This document shows, piece by piece, positions 39,208 through 48,232 of a DNA stretch of 64,000 nucleotides. The notes beneath the pieces are model-generated. The model saw nothing but the letters and a program-made list of their open reading frames with translations. It ran no database searches and had not been told where the DNA came from. The position numbers were made by a program, and so were the translations under genes. This stretch comes from Chloroflexota bacterium (GTDB lineage Bacteria > Chloroflexota > Anaerolineae > Anaerolineales > Villigracilaceae), in assembly GCA_021824575.1 (NCBI GenBank), contig JAKAKJ010000072.1, forward strand, positions 1-64,000, read 5' to 3'. How positions within the stretch are numbered: position 1 is the first letter of the stretch; each line of letters begins with the position of its first letter.

Positions 39208-39228
39208 GACCGACTCTCAAAAATGTTT

Positions 39229-39297
39229 TCAGGTTAACGGGTTTACAGGTTTGCACATTCGAATGTTCTAACTTTTGAACTTGAAAACTTGAGAACG
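39229..39297. repeat. Intergenic repeat-like element (CAGGTTTG...TTCTAACTTTTGAACTTGAAAACTTGAG type)
   Basis: Compositionally and locally similar to 10500-10564 and 45421-45482. Confidence 0.4.
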
Positions 39298-40706
39298 CGT
39301 TCTACCGCCAACTCACCCGAACGAATGCAATCAGGGATTCCGATTCCACGATAGCCATTGCCTGCCAGTGCAAGACCGGGATGTTTCTCCAGCGCGGCGT
39401 CAATACGCTTGAGAATTTCAGGGTGGCCGAGATTGTATTGCGGCATGGCTTTGTCCCACATGAAAACGCGTGAGAGAATAGGTTCGGCAGTGATACCAAG
39501 CGTCAGGTTCAATTCTTCTTTTGCCAACGCCAGCAGATCACCCTCGCCCCTGTCCCCTCTCCCATTAGGCGAGGGGAGTTCTTCCCCTGCCCTGCCGACA
39601 AAAACGCGGATGAGAACGCAGCCTTCGGGCGCACGGTGCGGAAATTTGGTGGATGTCCAAGTGGCGGCTAAAGCACGGCGTCCTTCGCGGCGCGGGATGA
39701 TGTATCCGTAACCGTCAAGTTCACGGGGCAGATCAGATTGCTTATACGCGAGGGAGATGGTGGCGGTCGAGGCGTAGGGAATGCTTTGTAAAGCGGAAGC
39801 AAGCGTAGGGTCAAATGAAGCGAGAAGGCTTCCGCTGATAAACGCGGGAGTGGCTAATATAACGGTATCAGCGTCGAGGTTTGAACCATCTTCCAATTCC
39901 ACAAGATAACGAGAGTTGATATTCGATATTCGAGAAACGGATGTGTTGAGCCGCAGATTCACTTTTGATTTTAGATTCTCGATCAACGCTTCAACAATTT
40001 CTGCAAGTCCCATTGTGGGTGTGAGAAACGCGGAACGCGAACCTTGTAGAGGCAAATGGCCATTCGCTTGGACATTTTGTTTTCGCATTTGAAGCGCACC
40101 GCGCGCGAGACTTCCATATTTGAGTTCGAGATCGCGCAGATATGGAAATGTGGACGCGAGACTGAGCGCGTCGCCGTCGCCCGCATAGACGCCGGACATC
40201 AGCGGCTCGATGAGATTCTCATACGCTTCGCGTCCAAGCCGACGGCTGACAAACGCGCCGAGGGACTCATCGCCATTCGGCGAATGCGGCGGGAGAAGAA
40301 AATCCAGCCCCATGCGCGCTTTACCAAACCACGAAACGAGCTGCGTTTTGAGAATGGCTTCGACGTTGGTTGGAATCATCATTGCCAAGCCATCGGGCAA
40401 AGGCAGGAGGCGATTGCGATGCAGAACGTAAGTGTTCTTTTTATTTGGGTTGGTGCCATGCAATCGTTCACCGAGGCCAAGTTCTTTGCAAAGTGCGGTG
40501 GCATATGGTTTGGTGGCGAGAAAGGTATCGGGGCCGCCCTCGATGATGAACTGGCCGCCCCCGAAAGGAACGCGGTCGGTGGTGATCTTGCCTCCCCAAC
40601 GATTGGACGATTCAAGAAGCGTTATTTGTACGTCAGGCAGTTTCTTTGTTGCGTAATACGCGGCGGAGAGTCCCGCGATGCCGCCGCCAATGATAAAGAG
40701 TTTCAT
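39243..40706 (-). CDS. hemY: Protoporphyrinogen/coproporphyrinogen oxidase (FAD-dependent, HemY/CgoX type)
   Basis: MKLFIIGGGIAGLSAAYYATKKLPDVQITLLESSNRWGGKITT...IEGGPDTFLATKPYA...LALAGNGYRGIGIPDCI. Confidence 0.93.
   Translation of the reverse strand: MKLFIIGGGIAGLSAAYYATKKLPDVQITLLESSNRWGGKITTDRVPFGGGQFIIEGGPDTFLATKPYATALCKELGLGERLHGTNPNKKNTYVLHRNRLLPLPDGLAMMIPTNVEAILKTQLVSWFGKARMGLDFLLPPHSPNGDESLGAFVSRRLGREAYENLIEPLMSGVYAGDGDALSLASTFPYLRDLELKYGSLARGALQMRKQNVQANGHLPLQGSRSAFLTPTMGLAEIVEALIENLKSKVNLRLNTSVSRISNINSRYLVELEDGSNLDADTVILATPAFISGSLLASFDPTLASALQSIPYASTATISLAYKQSDLPRELDGYGYIIPRREGRRALAATWTSTKFPHRAPEGCVLIRVFVGRAGEELPSPNGRGDRGEGDLLALAKEELNLTLGITAEPILSRVFMWDKAMPQYNLGHPEILKRIDAALEKHPGLALAGNGYRGIGIPDCIRSGELAVERVLKFSSSKVRTFECANL
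39538..39586. repeat. Repeat-like sequence in frame inside hemY
   Basis: ccctcgcccctgtcccctctcccattaggcgaggggagttcttcccc; encodes EELPSPNGRGDRGEG. Confidence 0.6.
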
Positions 40707-41635
40707 AGCCAGTCTGCTTCTTTTGCTTTTGTGCGAACCAATTGCGCCAATCCGTTAATCATGGCAGGCGCGGTGTTGAGCATTTCGATTCGTTCGAGAT
40801 GAATGTTCAATGATTTCGCCAGCCTTTGATAAACGATGTCAACATCGTAAAGGATTTCAACGTGTTCCGTCACAAAGCCAATGGGACAAAGCAAAATATT
40901 CTTATTGCCTTGGGATGCCAAGCGCTTGATAATCTCTCCGGCATCGGGACCAAGCCAGGGTTCAGTGGAAATGGCCGCGGATTGAAAGGCAAATTCGTGC
41001 GGATGATTTCCGAGTCGCTGCATCACGGCTGAAACCGTTTCGCGCAGTTGAAGGGGGTACGGATCATTCCATTCGAGAATCTTTTGCGGCAGGCTGTGCG
41101 CGGTGAAAATGATCGGAACCTCGGCGCGAACATCCGCAGGAAAACATTGAAGCGCGGCGCGGACGCGGTCGGCGAGCGCATCAAGGTAGCCAGATTCCAA
41201 ATGCCAGTCTTCGACGCGCAAAAACTCGATAGGCGCATTGGTTTCCTCGATTTTTTTGTAATATACCCCGATGCTCATGCGCGAATAATGCGGCGCCATC
41301 ACCAAACCAACGGCTTTTTCGATGCCCTGTATCTGCATTTCGGCGAGCGTATCTTTGATGTACGGGTGCCAGTGACGCATCCCGACGAAGGCTTTGAAAT
41401 CTTTGCTTGAAGAATTTAATGCCGATTCAAGGGCGGCGGCTTGCGCCTGAGTCTGTTCCAGAATCGGCGAACGCCCACCAATTTCACGGTAACGTTCGCG
41501 CACTTCATGGATGATCTCCGGTGCAGTGGGACGATGCCCGCGCACATCCAAAAGATACGGTTCGACTTCGTCAATGTTATCCGGTCCGCCGTAAGCCATG
41601 ACCAATAAACCGATCATAGGTGAGGTGCTCTCCAT
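40703..41635 (-). CDS. hemH: Ferrochelatase
   Basis: MIGLLVMAYGGPDNIDEVEPYLLDVRG...VGMRHWHPYIKDTL...IFTAHSLPQKI...GFVTEHVEILYDVDI. Confidence 0.95.
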   Translation of the reverse strand: MESTSPMIGLLVMAYGGPDNIDEVEPYLLDVRGHRPTAPEIIHEVRERYREIGGRSPILEQTQAQAAALESALNSSSKDFKAFVGMRHWHPYIKDTLAEMQIQGIEKAVGLVMAPHYSRMSIGVYYKKIEETNAPIEFLRVEDWHLESGYLDALADRVRAALQCFPADVRAEVPIIFTAHSLPQKILEWNDPYPLQLRETVSAVMQRLGNHPHEFAFQSAAISTEPWLGPDAGEIIKRLASQGNKNILLCPIGFVTEHVEILYDVDIVYQRLAKSLNIHLERIEMLNTAPAMINGLAQLVRTKAKEADWL

Positions 41636-41946
41636 TTTTTGATGATATTTTCAAGAGGTGGTTTTATTTTGTTTGCGTTGAACGGATACCAGCCAAGTTC
41701 CGCGCGGACAGCCTGTTCTTTCAATTCGGTCGAACCCCAAACGAAGGTAGCGCCGAGCACGCCAACGAGGACGGAAAGCCAATCGTTTTGGATGAATAGA
41801 GAAGCGATGATGAACATGATTCCGATCAACATCATATAAGGCCACCATAAATAACCAAAGCGGCGTTCGCCTTGAATGACAAGCGGGAAGCCGAGTCCGA
41901 TGATGAGGAGGGTGGCGACGCCAATGATGAGACCAAAGTAATTCAT
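41614..41946 (-). CDS. Small integral membrane protein, DUF4491-like
   Basis: MNYFGLIIGVATLLIIGLGFPLVIQGERRFGYLWWPYMMLIGIMFII. Confidence 0.65.
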   Translation of the reverse strand: MNYFGLIIGVATLLIIGLGFPLVIQGERRFGYLWWPYMMLIGIMFIIASLFIQNDWLSVLVGVLGATFVWGSTELKEQAVRAELGWYPFNANKIKPPLENIIKKWRAPHL

Positions 41947-41962
41947 GGTGAGCAACAAATGG

Positions 41963-42346
41963 TTAATGGATCATGGTTGATGGATAGCCAACTGGCTCGC
42001 GTTCGAGCAAATCAATCGTTGTTGCCGACGGATATTCCGTAAGAATTTTGGCATGACGCGGATTATCAGGGTTCGCCGGCGCGTGTCCCTTTTTGATGCG
42101 GTTTTGCTGGCGCGTGAATTCAAGCGCGTCGAAGAGCAGGGTGATGCCGAGGATGCCAAGAGCAGTATTCAGTAACCAGTGATCAGTGATCAGCACGAAG
42201 TATTCAGTGAGAATCCCAAGCGCGGTGAAGATAATCGTTGGGATCCAGATCGTCGGTGAGATGGATTCAATTTTGCGGACAGCGACGTGTCCGAACCAGA
42301 CGCTGAAGAATGCAGTCAATGCTGCGACCATCCCGATGAAGTTCAT
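41963..42346 (-). CDS. Small integral membrane protein related to the adjacent DUF4491-like protein
   Basis: MNFIGMVAALTAFFSVWFGHVAVRKIESISPTIWIPTIIFTALGILTEY; same layout as its neighbour. Confidence 0.6.
   Translation of the reverse strand: MNFIGMVAALTAFFSVWFGHVAVRKIESISPTIWIPTIIFTALGILTEYFVLITDHWLLNTALGILGITLLFDALEFTRQQNRIKKGHAPANPDNPRHAKILTEYPSATTIDLLEREPVGYPSTMIH
42170..42218. repeat. Repeat-like sequence in frame inside the small membrane protein gene
   Basis: gcagtattcagtaaccagtgatcagtgatcagcacgaagtattcagtgag; encodes TEYFVLITDHWLLNTA. Confidence 0.55.
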
Positions 42347-42348
42347 GC

Positions 42349-43425
42349 TTATGCCACGTCCCTGGTCTCGATACATTCCGCTGCTCGGCCATCGTTGGAG
42401 AAGGAGAATTCATGCACCATATCCACCACTGCTTTTACATTTTCCACTGGCGTATTCTGTAAAATACCATGACCAAGATTAAAGATGTGACCAGAACGCC
42501 CATCGGCGCGTTGCAAAATATCTCCTACACGTTTTTTGATTTCAGAACGCGGAGCGAACAATACGGCGGGATCAAGATTGCCTTGCACAGCCACGTTATC
42601 ACCGAGAATTTTCCAGCCATCGTCGAGCGGAATGCGCCAGTCGAGGCCAATCACGTCACCGCCTGCGCGTTTCATCAAGGGAAGAAGAGTTGATGTATTC
42701 GTGCCAAAGTGAATCACAGGGACATTTTCTTTTTGGGCGGCTTGCAGGACCATTTGCGAATAAGGCAAAACAAAATTTTCATAATCCTGCGGACTCAATG
42801 CACCAACCCATGAATCGAAAATTTGAACAGCCTGCGCTCCCGCGCGGATCTGCGCCACGAGATAATCGCGCAATACACCCGAAAGTTTGTCCATCAACGC
42901 GCGCCAAACTTCGGGAGCGGAGTACATCATCGTTTTGGTTTTGAGAAATTCGCGCGACGATCCGCCCTCGATGAGATAGGATGCGACCGTGAATGGAGCT
43001 CCGCAAAAGCCAATTAAGGGCACTCCGCTTAAAGTTCCGCGCAGGAGGCGAATGGCTTCCATCACATAGCCCAAATCCGATTCAGGATTCACGGGTCGAA
43101 GATTCTTTACATCATCCAAATTGCGAATCGGATTTAACAAAACAGGGCCTTCGCCTTTTGCAAATTCAAGACCAACACCGAGCGGAATCGCGGGAAGCAA
43201 AATATCTGCGAAGAGAATAGCCGCATCCACACCGAGGGCGCGGATGGGTTGAAGGGTTACCTCCGCCGCAAGTTCGGGATGCCGGCAAATTTCAAGCAGC
43301 GAATATTTTTCGCGGATGGCGCGATATTCCGGCATGTAACGTCCCGCCTGACGCATGAACCAGACTGGCGTGGTGCCCACGGGTTCACGGCGGCAGGCGC
43401 GCAGGAAGCGGTCGCTCATTTCCAT
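42349..43425 (-). CDS. hemE: Uroporphyrinogen decarboxylase
   Basis: FLRACRREPVGTTPVWFMRQAGRYMPEYRAIREKYSLLEICRHPELAAEVTLQPI...GFCGAPFTVASYLIEGG. Confidence 0.96.
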   Translation of the reverse strand: MEMSDRFLRACRREPVGTTPVWFMRQAGRYMPEYRAIREKYSLLEICRHPELAAEVTLQPIRALGVDAAILFADILLPAIPLGVGLEFAKGEGPVLLNPIRNLDDVKNLRPVNPESDLGYVMEAIRLLRGTLSGVPLIGFCGAPFTVASYLIEGGSSREFLKTKTMMYSAPEVWRALMDKLSGVLRDYLVAQIRAGAQAVQIFDSWVGALSPQDYENFVLPYSQMVLQAAQKENVPVIHFGTNTSTLLPLMKRAGGDVIGLDWRIPLDDGWKILGDNVAVQGNLDPAVLFAPRSEIKKRVGDILQRADGRSGHIFNLGHGILQNTPVENVKAVVDMVHEFSFSNDGRAAECIETRDVA

Positions 43426-44099
43426 AACGCGAGCGTCTCTTCGGCCGGATGATAGATGGCGGTGTAAACCGGTGTGTCTTGCAGAGTGTAGCGGCGCGCT
43501 TCAGTGTCGCGCAACTCGTTGACGAGGTCCGAGAAGCGCGGCAGGTCATCGGTCTCGTACACAACCACGAATTCCTGATCCTGCAAGCCGAACGAATATA
43601 AAAGCAATTGCTTGATGTCTTCGTATTGTTTGCCGATGCGGATGTGCTCGTTCATCATGCCTTGACGCGCTTCGCGGCTCATCAAATACCATTCCGCTGT
43701 TTTCGTAAACGGGTACATGACAAGATAACGGGCGCGCATTTCAGCAAACGGATCAATCTCTTGTGCGGAACGCGTCTTTGTGTACTGGGATGGACGCGTG
43801 AAGCCCCAAAGCGAATCCACAAGGCGAATCAGATGACGATACGGCGTGGTGGCTTGTGCCAGTTTCTCAAAGAAGGTCGAAGCGTTACACGGATCATCCG
43901 CTTCAAGCGCACACCAGACCAGGAAATCGGCCTTGGCATCGGCGTTCTGAAAAATATCCACGTTATGCGCGGCGGAACGTAAACCCGCCAGCCAACTCTT
44001 GTGGAAGGAATTTTTCGCTTCGTTGTTCAATGACCAATAAGAATCAGTGAATGCATACAATGCGAAGTGATTCAGCGTTCGAGGTGTTTGTTCAGGCAT
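43416..44099 (-). CDS. hemQ: Chlorite dismutase family protein, coproheme decarboxylase (HemQ/ChdC)-like
   Basis: YPFTKTAEWYLMSREARQGMMNEHIRIGKQYEDIKQLLLYSFGLQDQEFVVVYETDDLPRFSDLVNELRDTEARRYT; located in the heme operon. Confidence 0.85.
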   Translation of the reverse strand: MPEQTPRTLNHFALYAFTDSYWSLNNEAKNSFHKSWLAGLRSAAHNVDIFQNADAKADFLVWCALEADDPCNASTFFEKLAQATTPYRHLIRLVDSLWGFTRPSQYTKTRSAQEIDPFAEMRARYLVMYPFTKTAEWYLMSREARQGMMNEHIRIGKQYEDIKQLLLYSFGLQDQEFVVVYETDDLPRFSDLVNELRDTEARRYTLQDTPVYTAIYHPAEETLALWK

Positions 44100-44117
44100 G
44101 TTCTTCTCTTTATAATC

Positions 44118-44249
44118 GGTGGTCGAGTAGCCCGGAATGATTTTAGAGGGGCATATCGAGACCACTATTTCAAAACATATTTTTTTAATTGTCTCTTAAC
44201 GGTTGGTCTCGATATAGATCTCGCCATCGCTCAATCCTACTCGACCAAC
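44118..44249. repeat. Inverted pair of 48-bp palindromic elements (GGTGGTCGAGTAG...TATCGAGACCAC), MITE/REP-like
   Basis: Arm 1 44118-44165 and arm 2 44202-44249 are reverse-complement related, especially at both ends (TGGTCGAGTAG and ATATCGAGACCA). Confidence 0.7.
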
Positions 44250-44259
44250 GAATTGCTTT

Positions 44260-45405
44260 TTAATTTGCACTTGGAACATAAATGCACGCGGGATCGGATT
44301 CAAGATAGTCGCCAGTGACGCCGTATGCGCGTCCGCGTTGACCGCCGCATACATCGCGGAATTCACAGATTCCACAGCGGCCTTTGACTTTTTCGGGGCT
44401 GCGTAAATCGGTAAACAATTTCGAGTTGCGATAAACATTCACAATATCATCCGCGCGGACATTGCCTGCCGTAATCGGCAAAAATCCCGACGGCTGGATT
44501 TCGCCGATATGCGAGATGAACAAAAATCCATTTCCATCGTTGACGCCTTTGGTCGGGCGATTGAGTCCATCTGCATATTGAAAACCCGCGCCTTGGAATG
44601 TGACCGGCTTGCCTGCCGACTCGGCGCGCTTGCGTTGAATGGCAACGCGGCGATACATCGGCGCGGCCGTGGACTTGATATCGAATGGCGCGTTCTGTGA
44701 AAGGTCATATAACCAGTTGAAAACTTTTTCATGCTGCTCGGCGCTGATCATATTTTCCATTTGAGCGCGTCCCGTGGGGACGAGGAAGAACACTGACCAT
44801 TGCACCGCGTTGACTTCCTGAATGAACGGAATCATTTCATCCAGAATATCCACGTTGTGTTTTGAAACCGTTGTATTGACTTGCACACTCAAACCAACAT
44901 CCTGGGCGCGGTGCAAAATGTCCATCGTGCGCTGCCACGAACCGGGCACTTGACGAAACGCATCGTGGACTTCGGGGCGCGGCGCGTCGAGCGAAAGCGC
45001 AATTCGGCGGATGCCTGCATCGCGCGCCTTTTCGAGCCGCTCCTTGGTCGGCAACGCGGTGGCCGTCGGAGTCAATGAACAACGCAAACCCTTTTCGGTG
45101 GCATACGCGATGAGTTCGAACAAATCGGGACGCATCATCGGATCGCCGCCCGTAAAAACCAAAATGGGATTATTGCCAAACGCGGCGAGACGATCAACCA
45201 ACGCTTTGGCCTCTTCGGTGGAAAGTTCGCGAGGGTCACGCTGATGCTGCGCGTCGGCGCGGCAATGGACGCAGGCGTACGCGCAAGCGCGGGTAACTTC
45301 CCATGCAATCGTAAATGGCGCAAGATTGAAATCGGCATGGACCATGTGTTCGTTATGCAGTGAACGTTCAGAGGCGGCGCGTCCACTCAAGTTTTGTAAA
45401 GTCAT
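44260..45405 (-). CDS. Radical SAM/SPASM protein (AhbD/NirJ-like), heme-associated
   Basis: FTIAWEVTRACAYACVHCRADAQ (CxxxCxxC), C-terminal SPASM CGICEFRDVCGGQRGRAYGVTGDYLESDPAC; start ATG at 45405. Confidence 0.88.
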   Translation of the reverse strand: MTLQNLSGRAASERSLHNEHMVHADFNLAPFTIAWEVTRACAYACVHCRADAQHQRDPRELSTEEAKALVDRLAAFGNNPILVFTGGDPMMRPDLFELIAYATEKGLRCSLTPTATALPTKERLEKARDAGIRRIALSLDAPRPEVHDAFRQVPGSWQRTMDILHRAQDVGLSVQVNTTVSKHNVDILDEMIPFIQEVNAVQWSVFFLVPTGRAQMENMISAEQHEKVFNWLYDLSQNAPFDIKSTAAPMYRRVAIQRKRAESAGKPVTFQGAGFQYADGLNRPTKGVNDGNGFLFISHIGEIQPSGFLPITAGNVRADDIVNVYRNSKLFTDLRSPEKVKGRCGICEFRDVCGGQRGRAYGVTGDYLESDPACIYVPSAN

Positions 45406-45420
45406 CAGTGTCTCCGTGAA

Positions 45421-45482
45421 TCCTGTTTGAAAATTGGATGGTTTGCAGGTTTCAACATTCCAACTTGTCAACCTTCTAACCC
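45421..45482. repeat. Intergenic repeat-like element
   Basis: tcctgtttgaaaattggatggtttgcaggtttcaacattccaacttgtcaaccttctaacccgcc; resembles 39229-39297. Confidence 0.4.
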
Positions 45483-46531
45483 GCCAACCATTTTGCTGCA
45501 TCGAGCGCGTGATACGTAATAATCACATCCGCGCCGGCGCGCTTGATAGATGTCAATGTTTCGAGCGTCACCTTGGCCTCGTCAATCCAGCCGTTTTGTG
45601 CGGCGGCTTTGATCATCGAATACTCACCGCTGACGTTATAAGCCGCCATCGGCAATTCAGGGAACGCGTCCTTCACCACGCGGATCACATCGAGATACGC
45701 CAGCGCGGGTTTCACCATCAACATATCTGCGCCTTCATCCACGTCGAGCGCGGCTTCACGTAACGCCTCGCGCACATTCGCGGGGTCCATCTGATGCGAC
45801 TTGCGGTCGCCGAACTTCGGCGCACCCTCGGCGGCTTCGCGGAACGGCCCATAAAACGACGAAGCATATTTCACGGCATAAGACAAGATTGGCGTGTTCT
45901 CAAAACCGTTTTCATCCAACGCATCGCGAATGGCCGCGACCATTCCATCCATCATGCCGCTCGGTGCAACGATGTCCGCGCCGCATTCCGCATGAGAGAC
46001 CGCAACCTTCGCAAGCACATCGAGCGTTTCATCGTTCAGCACATAACCCTCAGGCAAATGGATATGTTCACCGGTATTCAAAATTCCACAATGGCCGTGA
46101 TCGGTGTATTCGCACAGACAGACATCGGTCACGACCACCATCTCCGGGATTTCTTTTTTGATCGCGCGGATCGCCTGCTGGACGATTCCATTGTGATCAA
46201 AATTTTCCAAGCCGACCGGATCTTTCTCCGCGGGAATGCCGAACAAGATCACAGCGTTCACCCCGGACTTCATGGCGGCTTCCGCTTCACGAACAGATTC
46301 CTCCACTGACAGTTGATACACACCCGGCATCGAGCGAATCTCGCTGCGGCCCTCGCCATGCTCGCCGTGCCGCACGAACAACGGATAAATAAAATCGCGC
46401 GCGTTGAGTTCTGTTTCGCGGATCATCGCGCGCAGCGCGGGCGTGGCGCGCAAGCGGCGGGGACGATTTACGATTGAAGATTTTTGATTGATGATTTTCG
46501 GTTTATGATTTTGGATTTCGAATAATGCCAT
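45476..46531 (-). CDS. hemB: Delta-aminolevulinic acid dehydratase (porphobilinogen synthase)
   Basis: [35 protein letters not shown]...[18 protein letters not shown]...[13 protein letters not shown]. Confidence 0.96.
46462..46523. repeat. Repeat-like sequence in frame at the hemB 5' end
   Basis: atttacgattgaagatttttgattgatgattttcggtttatgattttggatttc; encodes [18 protein letters not shown]. Confidence 0.6.
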
Positions 46532-46544
46532 GTTTCCTCCAGGG

Positions 46545-47315
46545 CTACGCATTCAACAATGCGTTAACCAATCCTTCCGTTGTATATTCTTCGGCCACCA
46601 AATCCACTTTGAAACCTTCTTCTTTCGCGGCTTTCTCCGTGATCGGTCCAATGCACGCGACCTTTGGATTATTCTTTAATTCAAATGGATTCATTTTCTG
46701 CCGGCGAACAATCTCAACAAAATTCTGCGCCGTGGATGGACTGGTAAACGTGATCCAATCCACGCCGGATTTCAACGCAGCCAAACCATCAGGATCAACT
46801 TGCGCTGGTAATGTTTTATAAACGGCAATCTCATGCGCGATGCCGCCCGCGTTGACAATCGCTTCGGGCAATGCCTTGCGCGCAATTTCCGCACGGGGAA
46901 GCAAGACCCATTTCCCGTTCAAATTCCCCAAGCCGGGCAGAATTGATTCAGCCACATATTCTTCGGGGACAAAATCAGGAATTACGCCGCGCGCGTTCAG
47001 CGCTTCGGCAGTTTTGGGACCGATGGATGCCACTTTTATCCCCTCTCCCTTATCCCTTCTCCCCAAATTGGGAGCTTGCTTTGTCGCTTCGCTCCTCGCA
47101 ATGACATCGAACACCACCTCCACCGCATTGACCGATGTGAAAACAATCCATTCGTATTTATCCAGATTCTTCAAAGCCTGATCGAGCTGCGTATGGTCCT
47201 CCATCGGGCGGATTTGAATCACAGGAAAACAAATCGGCTCGAAGCCGGCGGCTTTGAGGGCATCAATAAATCCATCTGCCTGCTCGCGCGGACGCGTGAC
47301 GAGAATTCGTTTCAT
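46545..47315 (-). CDS. hemD: Uroporphyrinogen-III synthase
   Basis: [35 protein letters not shown]...[15 protein letters not shown]...[16 protein letters not shown]. Confidence 0.92.
47036..47108. repeat. Two repeat-like modules in frame inside hemD
   Basis: cccctctcccttatcccttctccccaaattgggagcttgctttgtcgcttcgctcctcgcaatgacatc; encodes [24 protein letters not shown], the 'tcattgcgaggagcgaagcgacaaagcaa' type sequence. Confidence 0.75.
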
Positions 47316-48232
47316 TTGACTGAACTCACTCCAAGAATTTTGCTCGCACCTTGTTCAATGGCCTTTTGCGAAAGTTTAGTTCCAAGTTGAATTGCATCCG
47401 TGCCTTGACCATTTACTTTGACGACTTTCTTTCCATCTTCCGAAATCACCAACCCCTTCAAATTGATTACTGCCGACTGCTTACTGCTTACTGCGTAAGC
47501 CGCCACCGGCACCGCACATCCACCGCCGAGTCCGCTCAGGAAGGCGCGTTCGGCAGTGACCGCTTTCCGCGTGGATTCATCGTCCAGTGCGGCGAGCAGA
47601 TTGAGGGTCGTTTGATCGTCCGCGCGGCATTGCACGGCGAGCGCACCCTGTCCCGGCGCGGGAAGCATCACATCCAATGAAAGCCATTCGGTCACATGCT
47701 GGTCCAAATTCAAACGCGTCAATCCCGCGCCCGCGAGAAGGATGGCGTCATATTGATTATCCAACGCTTTGCGTACGCGCGTGTCCACATTGCCACGCAG
47801 CGATTCAGTGTGAAGGTCAGGGCGGAGGGAAAGTAACTGGGCAGAGCGGCGCAGGCTCGAGGTCCCGACGGATGCGCCTTTGGGTAACGTCGAAAGCGTG
47901 TGACCTTTCGATGAAATCAACGCGTCACGCACTTCGCCGCGCGTTGGAATACATCCAATCGTGAGGCCATCAGAATTTTCAACAGGCAAATCCTTCAGCG
48001 AATGAACCGCACAATGAACCGCGCCGCTCAACAATTCCGATTCAAGTTCCTGTGTGAAAAGTCCCTTGCCGCCGATTTCAGGCAAAGGCTTGTCGAGAAT
48101 TTTGTCGCCTTGTGTGACGATGATTTTTTCTTCGCACACCAAACCGGGATGGATTTTTTGCAGCGCGTGGATGACCCATTGAGTTTGCCAACGGGCTAAT
48201 GAGGATGGACGGGTTGCAAAAATTAGTTTCAT
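47312..48232 (-). CDS. hemC: Hydroxymethylbilane synthase (porphobilinogen deaminase)
   Basis: MKLIFATRPSSLARWQTQWVIHALQKIHP...GTSSLRRSAQLLSLRPDL...SLRGNVDTRVRKAL. Confidence 0.96.
   Translation of the reverse strand: MKLIFATRPSSLARWQTQWVIHALQKIHPGLVCEEKIIVTQGDKILDKPLPEIGGKGLFTQELESELLSGAVHCAVHSLKDLPVENSDGLTIGCIPTRGEVRDALISSKGHTLSTLPKGASVGTSSLRRSAQLLSLRPDLHTESLRGNVDTRVRKALDNQYDAILLAGAGLTRLNLDQHVTEWLSLDVMLPAPGQGALAVQCRADDQTTLNLLAALDDESTRKAVTAERAFLSGLGGGCAVPVAAYAVSSKQSAVINLKGLVISEDGKKVVKVNGQGTDAIQLGTKLSQKAIEQGASKILGVSSVK
47463..47501. repeat. Repeat-like sequence in frame inside hemC
   Basis: ttgattactgccgactgcttactgcttactgcgtaagc; encodes AYAVSSKQSAVIN. Confidence 0.65.

Follow-up and report, generated by a model that had tools for sequence, protein, structure and literature searches.

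Rickettsia palindromic elements (RPE) are small palindromes of several families that reside in frame within unrelated metabolic genes, whose proteins are predicted to stay compatible with them (PMC10969869). In-frame palindromes in essential genes have so far been known mainly from Rickettsia, and we describe the same outcome in another phylum and with two kinds of repeat. The genes in question belong to a heme biosynthesis cluster on contig JAKAKJ010000072.1 of a Chloroflexota bacterium from the Villigracilaceae (Anaerolineales; assembly GCA_021824575.1), and lie within a stretch of 64,000 nucleotides that is termed the window below; positions refer to it and features to its minus strand unless stated otherwise. 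An initial annotation had pointed out repeat-like peptides in open frames of hemY, hemD, hemC, hemB and the small gene orf137, and all five were found in place. We consider it quite probable that dispersed repeats, palindromes as well as arrays of 7-bp units (heptads), have spread into these genes, survive at tolerant in-frame sites and are re-used there by later families. From one species to another, a given loop of a given enzyme is occupied by different repeats, which points to mobile-looking repeats as a recurrent source of new protein segments. This re-use of one loop by unrelated families between species was missed by the initial annotation.

The likeness to RPE that had been proposed for all modules holds for the palindromes, while hemC, hemB and orf137, as well as one half of the hemD insert, have degenerate tandem arrays of 7-bp units as their modules, which are nearer to cyanobacterial short tandemly repeated repetitive (STRR) sequences or to TAACTGA-type heptamers. 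Going by the features of RPE given in a 2024 review, the palindromes seem to work in the same way: there are several families here too, in frame in conserved genes and also between genes. The differences are the phylum, the mostly shorter elements, the involvement of heptamer arrays and the re-use of one loop by different families. Palindromicity as in RPE is found in the GGGAGAGGG copies and in intact HemD inserts of relatives (hairpin z-scores of the DNA lie between -4.5 and -9 in seven intact inserts and between -1.3 and +1.7 in five loops without an insert), not in the half element of our genome nor in the heptads.

TAACTGA repeats of Beggiatoaceae, Cyanobacteria and Bacteroidetes resemble the arrays in sequence, TAACTGA being the reverse complement of TCAGTTA, a heptad of the CAGTNAN type present here; orthologues of orf137 contain their predicted reading LITDN, and translation of the other strand yields LSVISYQ-like peptides as in HemC (PMC4679880). 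These repeats are mostly intergenic and situated just upstream of start codons, whereas ours are often intragenic and come in many heptad flavors. The exact 7-bp tandem period and the dispersal through the genome typical of STRR and TAACTGA repeats are matched, the mainly intergenic location is not (17 of 28 arrays are in genes). GGGANTN in Xanthomonas, GGGGAYT in Nostoc and cyanobacterial STRR are likewise dispersed degenerate heptads with a fixed core (PMC4692102), but the cores differ and the G-quadruplex role proposed for GGGANTN and GGGGAYT is inapplicable to CAGTNAN or GATTNNN. Miniature inverted-repeat transposable elements (MITEs) and the enterobacterial repetitive intergenic consensus (ERIC) or repeat unit (RU) elements within genes combine palindromes with terminal inverted repeats and can give in-frame fusions (PMC10969869, PMC2759123), as is the case here. 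Terminal inverted repeats are present in most TGTCATTGCGAGG copies; unlike MITEs, our elements often sit inside conserved domains, and no parent transposon was found in this genome.

In the limited literature searched we found nothing relevant on the DNA or peptides of the modules, no report of comparable repeats from Chloroflexota and no description of this combination of repeats, of their frequency inside conserved genes or of loop re-use by unrelated families. With dozens of related genomes acting as replicates, it becomes directly testable whether new segments of proteins come from selfish repeats, a long-standing question, and the HemD loop, the HemC hairpin, the HemB zinc hairpin and a hairpin in GlyS are sites at which replacement can be tracked species by species. 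For annotation and modelling of these genomes, repeat-derived peptides should probably be treated as real protein parts.

Two kinds of dispersed repeat

The modules are of two physical kinds, MITE-like palindromes and degenerate heptamer arrays. The former comprise the TGTCATTGCGAGG element, one half of which is present in hemD, and the CCCTCTCCC..GGGAGAGGG element of hemY; the latter make up the modules of hemC, the hemB N-terminus, orf137 and part of hemD, and tandem-repeat scanning places most modules at period 7. Copies were counted in the whole genome (3.64 Mb, 98 contigs), the same pattern read backwards serving as control. The TGTCATTGCGAGG-type pattern GTCATTGCGAGGAGCGAAGC matches 23 places with up to three mismatches (control 0), CCCTCTCCCNNNNGGNGAGGG gives 36 strand matches, equivalent to 18 sites (control 2 strand matches), and CAGTGATCAGTGATCAG, a pattern that also covers the hemC unit GCAGTAA as a member of the CAGTNAN heptads, gives 53 (control 0). 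Four successive GATTNNN units occur 16 times (control 0) and three ACTGCNN units 24 times (control 5, the weakest excess); the heptad matches are not all separate sites because some are overlapping registers of one array. Thus, all modules are multi-copy with reversed controls near zero, in agreement with their initial description as dispersed repeats, and single-copy chance likeness was rejected on the basis of these controls. In most copies of the TGTCATTGCGAGG element a matching inverted end lies about 50-150 bp away. Ten of the 17 GGGAGAGGG loci examined (two of which are the same site) are inside called genes.

Arrays were scanned in 644 kb of sampled stretches from the same genome, the window included, and were defined by a self-match of at least 16/21, relaxed from a stricter first threshold unsuited to degenerate arrays and applied equally to the control lags. 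At lag 7 we found 28 arrays, compared with 1, 1, 0, 1, 0, 1 and 1 at lags 4, 5, 10, 13, 17, 19 and 20, respectively. Lags 8, 14 and 16 are also raised, which period-8 arrays and multiples would lead one to expect, and so are multiples of 3, owing to codon structure. Besides the 17 arrays in called genes, three are at gene edges and eight are intergenic; genes account for 88% of the sequence. Without the window, 23 lag-7 arrays remain in 580 kb, 14 of them in genes, and E. coli K-12, counted over 200 kb, has none. CAGTNAT heptads are concentrated in the Chloroflexota family studied, with copies in scattered other Chloroflexota. Within a gene at L192:1488-1566, a heptad array and an inverted copy behind it give (GGGAGTC)n..(GACTCTC)n, i.e., heptads are laid out as a palindrome, and it is possible that such an arrangement links both kinds of repeat.

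Protein loops occupied by different repeats

Orthologues were compared among about 35 Anaerolineales genomes. From species to species, and even between sister species, the HemD loop, the HemC hairpin, the HemB N-terminus and the HemB zinc hairpin were found to hold different families of repeat. In HemD, uroporphyrinogen-III synthase (46545..47315; identified by open reading frame (ORF), PDB match and AlphaFold), a variable stretch bounded by the conserved motifs FTSVNAV and VAAIG carries a series of different repeats across the family; in our genome the insert adds 8 to 13 residues over uninserted loops of the family. Copy counts and orthologue loops identify the left half of a TGTCATTGCGAGG palindromic element in our genome (47075..47107), and repeat scanning and orthologue loops reveal a second repeat beside it (47036..47074) that consists of CCCTTAT/CCCTTCT heptads and a CTCCCC-AAATT-GGGAG hairpin. 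G003, from the same genus, and G010 contain the full TGTCATTGCGAGG palindrome at the junction where our genome has the left half plus the CCCC/GGGG repeat. Altogether, the TGTCATTGCGAGG element occupies the loop in seven genomes, CCCTC elements in four (G012, G115, G051 and G146), a CCCCCC..GGGGGG element in two (G021 and G053) and a GTAGGGGCGA-type hairpin in four (G107, G103, G119 and G160); some genomes have other repeats and about eleven have none. On a HemC plus HemD tree built without the loop columns, on which the members of the groups G021/G051 and G146/G167 differ, the family of repeat changed at least 18 times.

Hydroxymethylbilane synthase HemC (47312..48232; ORF, PDB match and AlphaFold) offers a similar picture. 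A heptad array of GCAGTAA units (CAGTNAN type; 47464..47503; repeat scan, alignment and AlphaFold) encodes the turn AVSSKQSAVIN of the domain-3 hairpin that follows the GGC..PVAAYA motif, and adds about one to two residues over uninserted hairpins. At least six heptad flavors are found at this place (CAGTNAN, TTCAGAA, GAAGGTC, GAGATTN, GACCGTN and GCAGAAT), which changed at least 12 times on the same tree, and three genomes have an additional CCTGCCCTGAGCGAAGTCGAAGG repeat within the array. In the AlphaFold model the segment forms the turn joining strands 243-249 and 256-263. For LSVISYQ, a translated heptad, an antiparallel sheet was predicted by MacGregor (PMC4679880), which agrees with the hairpin position. 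Two genomes, G083 and G125, each returned two HemC matches, of very unlike identities in G125; these metagenome-assembled genomes possibly include contaminant contigs.

In porphobilinogen synthase HemB (45476..46552; ORF and PDB match), a GATTNNN array encodes the N-terminal arm (46463..46517; repeat scan, copy count and orthologues). The arm is heptad-coded in nearly all genomes, in several flavors, and G129 and G055 share a palindrome within it. The hairpin after the zinc-site motif CGIL contains palindromes in about one third of the genomes. In L154 and L165, which represent two genera, a palindrome ACACTTGCACCTGGCGCAAGTGCAGGTGT (TLAPGASAGVV) is embedded in the N-terminal heptad array. Our hemB also contains a 9-bp tandem duplication (46352-46370) yielding an extra HGE (VRHGEHGEG) that is present in none of the aligned orthologues.

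The protoporphyrinogen oxidase gene hemY/hemG (39243..40706; ORF and PDB match) harbors a palindromic CCCTCTCCC/GGGAGAGGG element (39541..39578; orthologue alignment and copy count) that encodes ELPSPNGRGDRGEG between FVGRAG and the next helix. It adds seven residues in our genome only and is absent from all eight aligned relatives, with the same genus represented among them. The spacer between hemL and hemY and the C-terminal tail of HemY (KFSSSKVRTFEC) are made up of period-8 repeats of the CAGGTTNN / AACTTGAA type (39225-39296), and similar tails are seen in some relatives. The small membrane protein gene orf137 (41963..42376; ORF and orthologue alignment), conserved across the family, has a CAGTNAN-type array in place (LITDHWLLNT; 42162..42194; alignment and repeat scan), with heptads of two flavors at the same site in several relatives. 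The length of the protein is unchanged: its ITDHWLLNT segment, initially listed among the modules, shows no gap in the alignment with orthologues from the family and was rejected as an insertion. Alignment to orthologues thus bore out the supposed additions as length gains in HemY, HemD and HemC and as a heptad-coded arm in HemB, not in orf137. Tandem-repeat scanning detected a further heptad/14-mer array (ATGGTTAATGGATC) across the orf137 3' end and the adjoining spacer (41958..41985, no strand assigned).

The idea that all this represents a general route to new peptide segments gains support from genes outside the operon. In-frame GGGAGAGGG elements were found within Pfam domains of GlyS, a UvrD-like helicase, a HemN/HemW-like radical SAM protein, a GMC oxidoreductase, an alpha-glucosidase and an FGE-sulfatase, and for three of the GGGAGAGGG-bearing proteins the alignment with PDB structures opens a gap where the element lies; HycI is another conserved protein whose gene has an in-frame repeat. 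G002, G010 and G012 have the native GlyS hairpin, (I/V)(E/Q)KNG(K/R)L. In its place, CCCTC elements are found in G000, G003 and G004, heptads in G007 and G026, a CCCCCC element in G001 and yet another repeat in G005. Glycyl-tRNA synthetase of L061 / L220 is encoded in one long open frame with the Pfam domains of both alpha and beta subunits, i.e., as a fused GlyQS.

Ratios of nonsynonymous to synonymous substitution rates (dN/dS) of 0.13-0.25 between pairs of hemC and hemD genes, including sister pairs with different inserts, indicate purifying selection. The AlphaFold model of HemD (mean predicted local distance difference test score, pLDDT, 92.5) has the insert at about residues 63-74, in the loop that connects helix 62-74 to strand 94-97 and also contains a short helix (76-80). 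Together with these models, the dN/dS values suggest that the enzymes are probably working, as had been supposed, and that the modules reside in a surface loop (HemD) and a hairpin turn (HemC). The HemB module is at the N-terminus, so that the expected placement at termini or in variable loops was confirmed. Assembly artefacts were rejected as an explanation for the repeats because the same pattern recurs in many genomes, one of which (G012) is a single contig.

Possible origin and spread of the repeats

We propose that two kinds of repeat, MITE- or REP-like (repetitive extragenic palindromic) palindromes with terminal inverted repeats and degenerate heptamer arrays, would spread through these Anaerolineales genomes and insert into, or overwrite, DNA within as well as between genes. 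A genic copy may survive if it keeps the frame, contains no in-frame stop and lies at a terminus or in a surface hairpin or loop, and would then become an ordinary protein segment, presumably without a function of its own. Later repeats of other families could replace or extend the segment because that place tolerates change. The palindromes would be moved in trans by a putative transposase and the heptads may arise through polymerase slippage, which has been proposed for heptads in work cited in PMC4692102 and PMC4679880, combined with short-homology conversion. The sites would be picked by selection and not by target choice. The presence of palindromes and heptad arrays side by side agrees with the initial view that several repeat families meet in one operon.

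Several points weigh against this proposal. No transposase was tied to any heme-gene repeat family, and no CCCTC or TGTCATTGCGAGG copies lie beside the two Y1_Tnp matches in the genome. The one solo Y1 transposase, which is IS200-like (L174:1495-1905), is flanked on both sides by GAGTCGG..CCGACTT palindromes in a layout like that of REP-associated tyrosine transposases (RAYT), and short dispersed hairpins are shared with REP and REPIN (REP doublet hairpin) systems, yet these palindromes belong to another family than the heme-gene repeats. The hemD insert of our genome, a half palindrome, folds no better than shuffles (z -0.95) and the hemY insert reaches merely -2.35. The change counts for HemD and HemC are approximate since the repeats were sorted into families by visual inspection and the tree has several weak branches. 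Most genomes are metagenome-assembled, although the single-contig G012 has the same pattern. Finally, the TGTCATTGCGAGG junction in HemD is identical across several lineages, so that a single old insertion that was later overwritten many times and a series of separate insertions are equally likely; replacement of HemD loop repeats is frequent under either history.

That common junction and the ungapped orf137 would also fit old inheritance with ordinary drift, according to which the loops were established a single time, in the ancestor of the family, have drifted since, and resemble repeats mostly through low-complexity coincidence. We regard this as very improbable in view of sister species with intact palindromes of different families at one loop, a HemY insert confined to our genome, multi-copy modules with reversed controls near zero and the specificity for period 7. 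Targeted insertion, in which some enzyme would direct repeats to short sequences or hairpins that it prefers and sites are re-hit because of the DNA and not of protein tolerance, could draw on the recurrence of the junction GATG-TCATTGCGAGG in HemD and on the resemblance of native GGCGTGAAG to the element end GGGGTGAGG at the other HemD junction. Still, one loop is used by unrelated families with different ends and all re-used sites seen are loops, hairpins or termini, and we consider such targeting unlikely. Several junctions, among them GGGGTGAGG versus GGCGTGAAG, resemble replacement at short matches by their sequences. An active process that overwrites short gene stretches with repeat DNA copied from elsewhere in the genome, by replacement joined at short matches and not by simple insertion, and that in the course of evolution re-samples selected loops of core enzymes with new peptide modules, is conceivable, if somewhat doubtful.

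A different explanation would have the repeats selected for, with heptads or hairpins acting in DNA or mRNA (protein binding, translation control or attenuation) and the protein segment as a by-product. TAACTGA heptamers in Beggiatoaceae have been proposed to be regulatory (PMC4679880), and about 6 kb of the heme cluster hold four arrays while 580 kb from elsewhere hold 23, although the region had already been picked when the two were compared. The positions, however, match protein loops and not gene starts (the HemC hairpin is near the 3' end, the HemD site is a loop and that of GlyS is internal), families interchange freely at one site and orthologues without inserts exist, which makes this explanation improbable. 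Spread of dispersed repeats into tolerant sites is the reading we prefer.

Gene order of the heme cluster

On the minus strand the cluster reads hemA, hemC, hemD, hemB, a radical SAM gene, a HemQ/ChdC-like gene, hemE, orf137, orf114, hemH, hemY and hemL. The identities of hemC, hemD, hemB and hemY rest on PDB matches; hemA, the radical SAM and HemQ/ChdC-like genes, hemE, hemH and hemL are named according to their protein families. A period-8 repeat, AACYTNYC, is present at the 5' end of the radical SAM gene (45434-45501), the called start of which may be situated in the spacer, with the true start further in.

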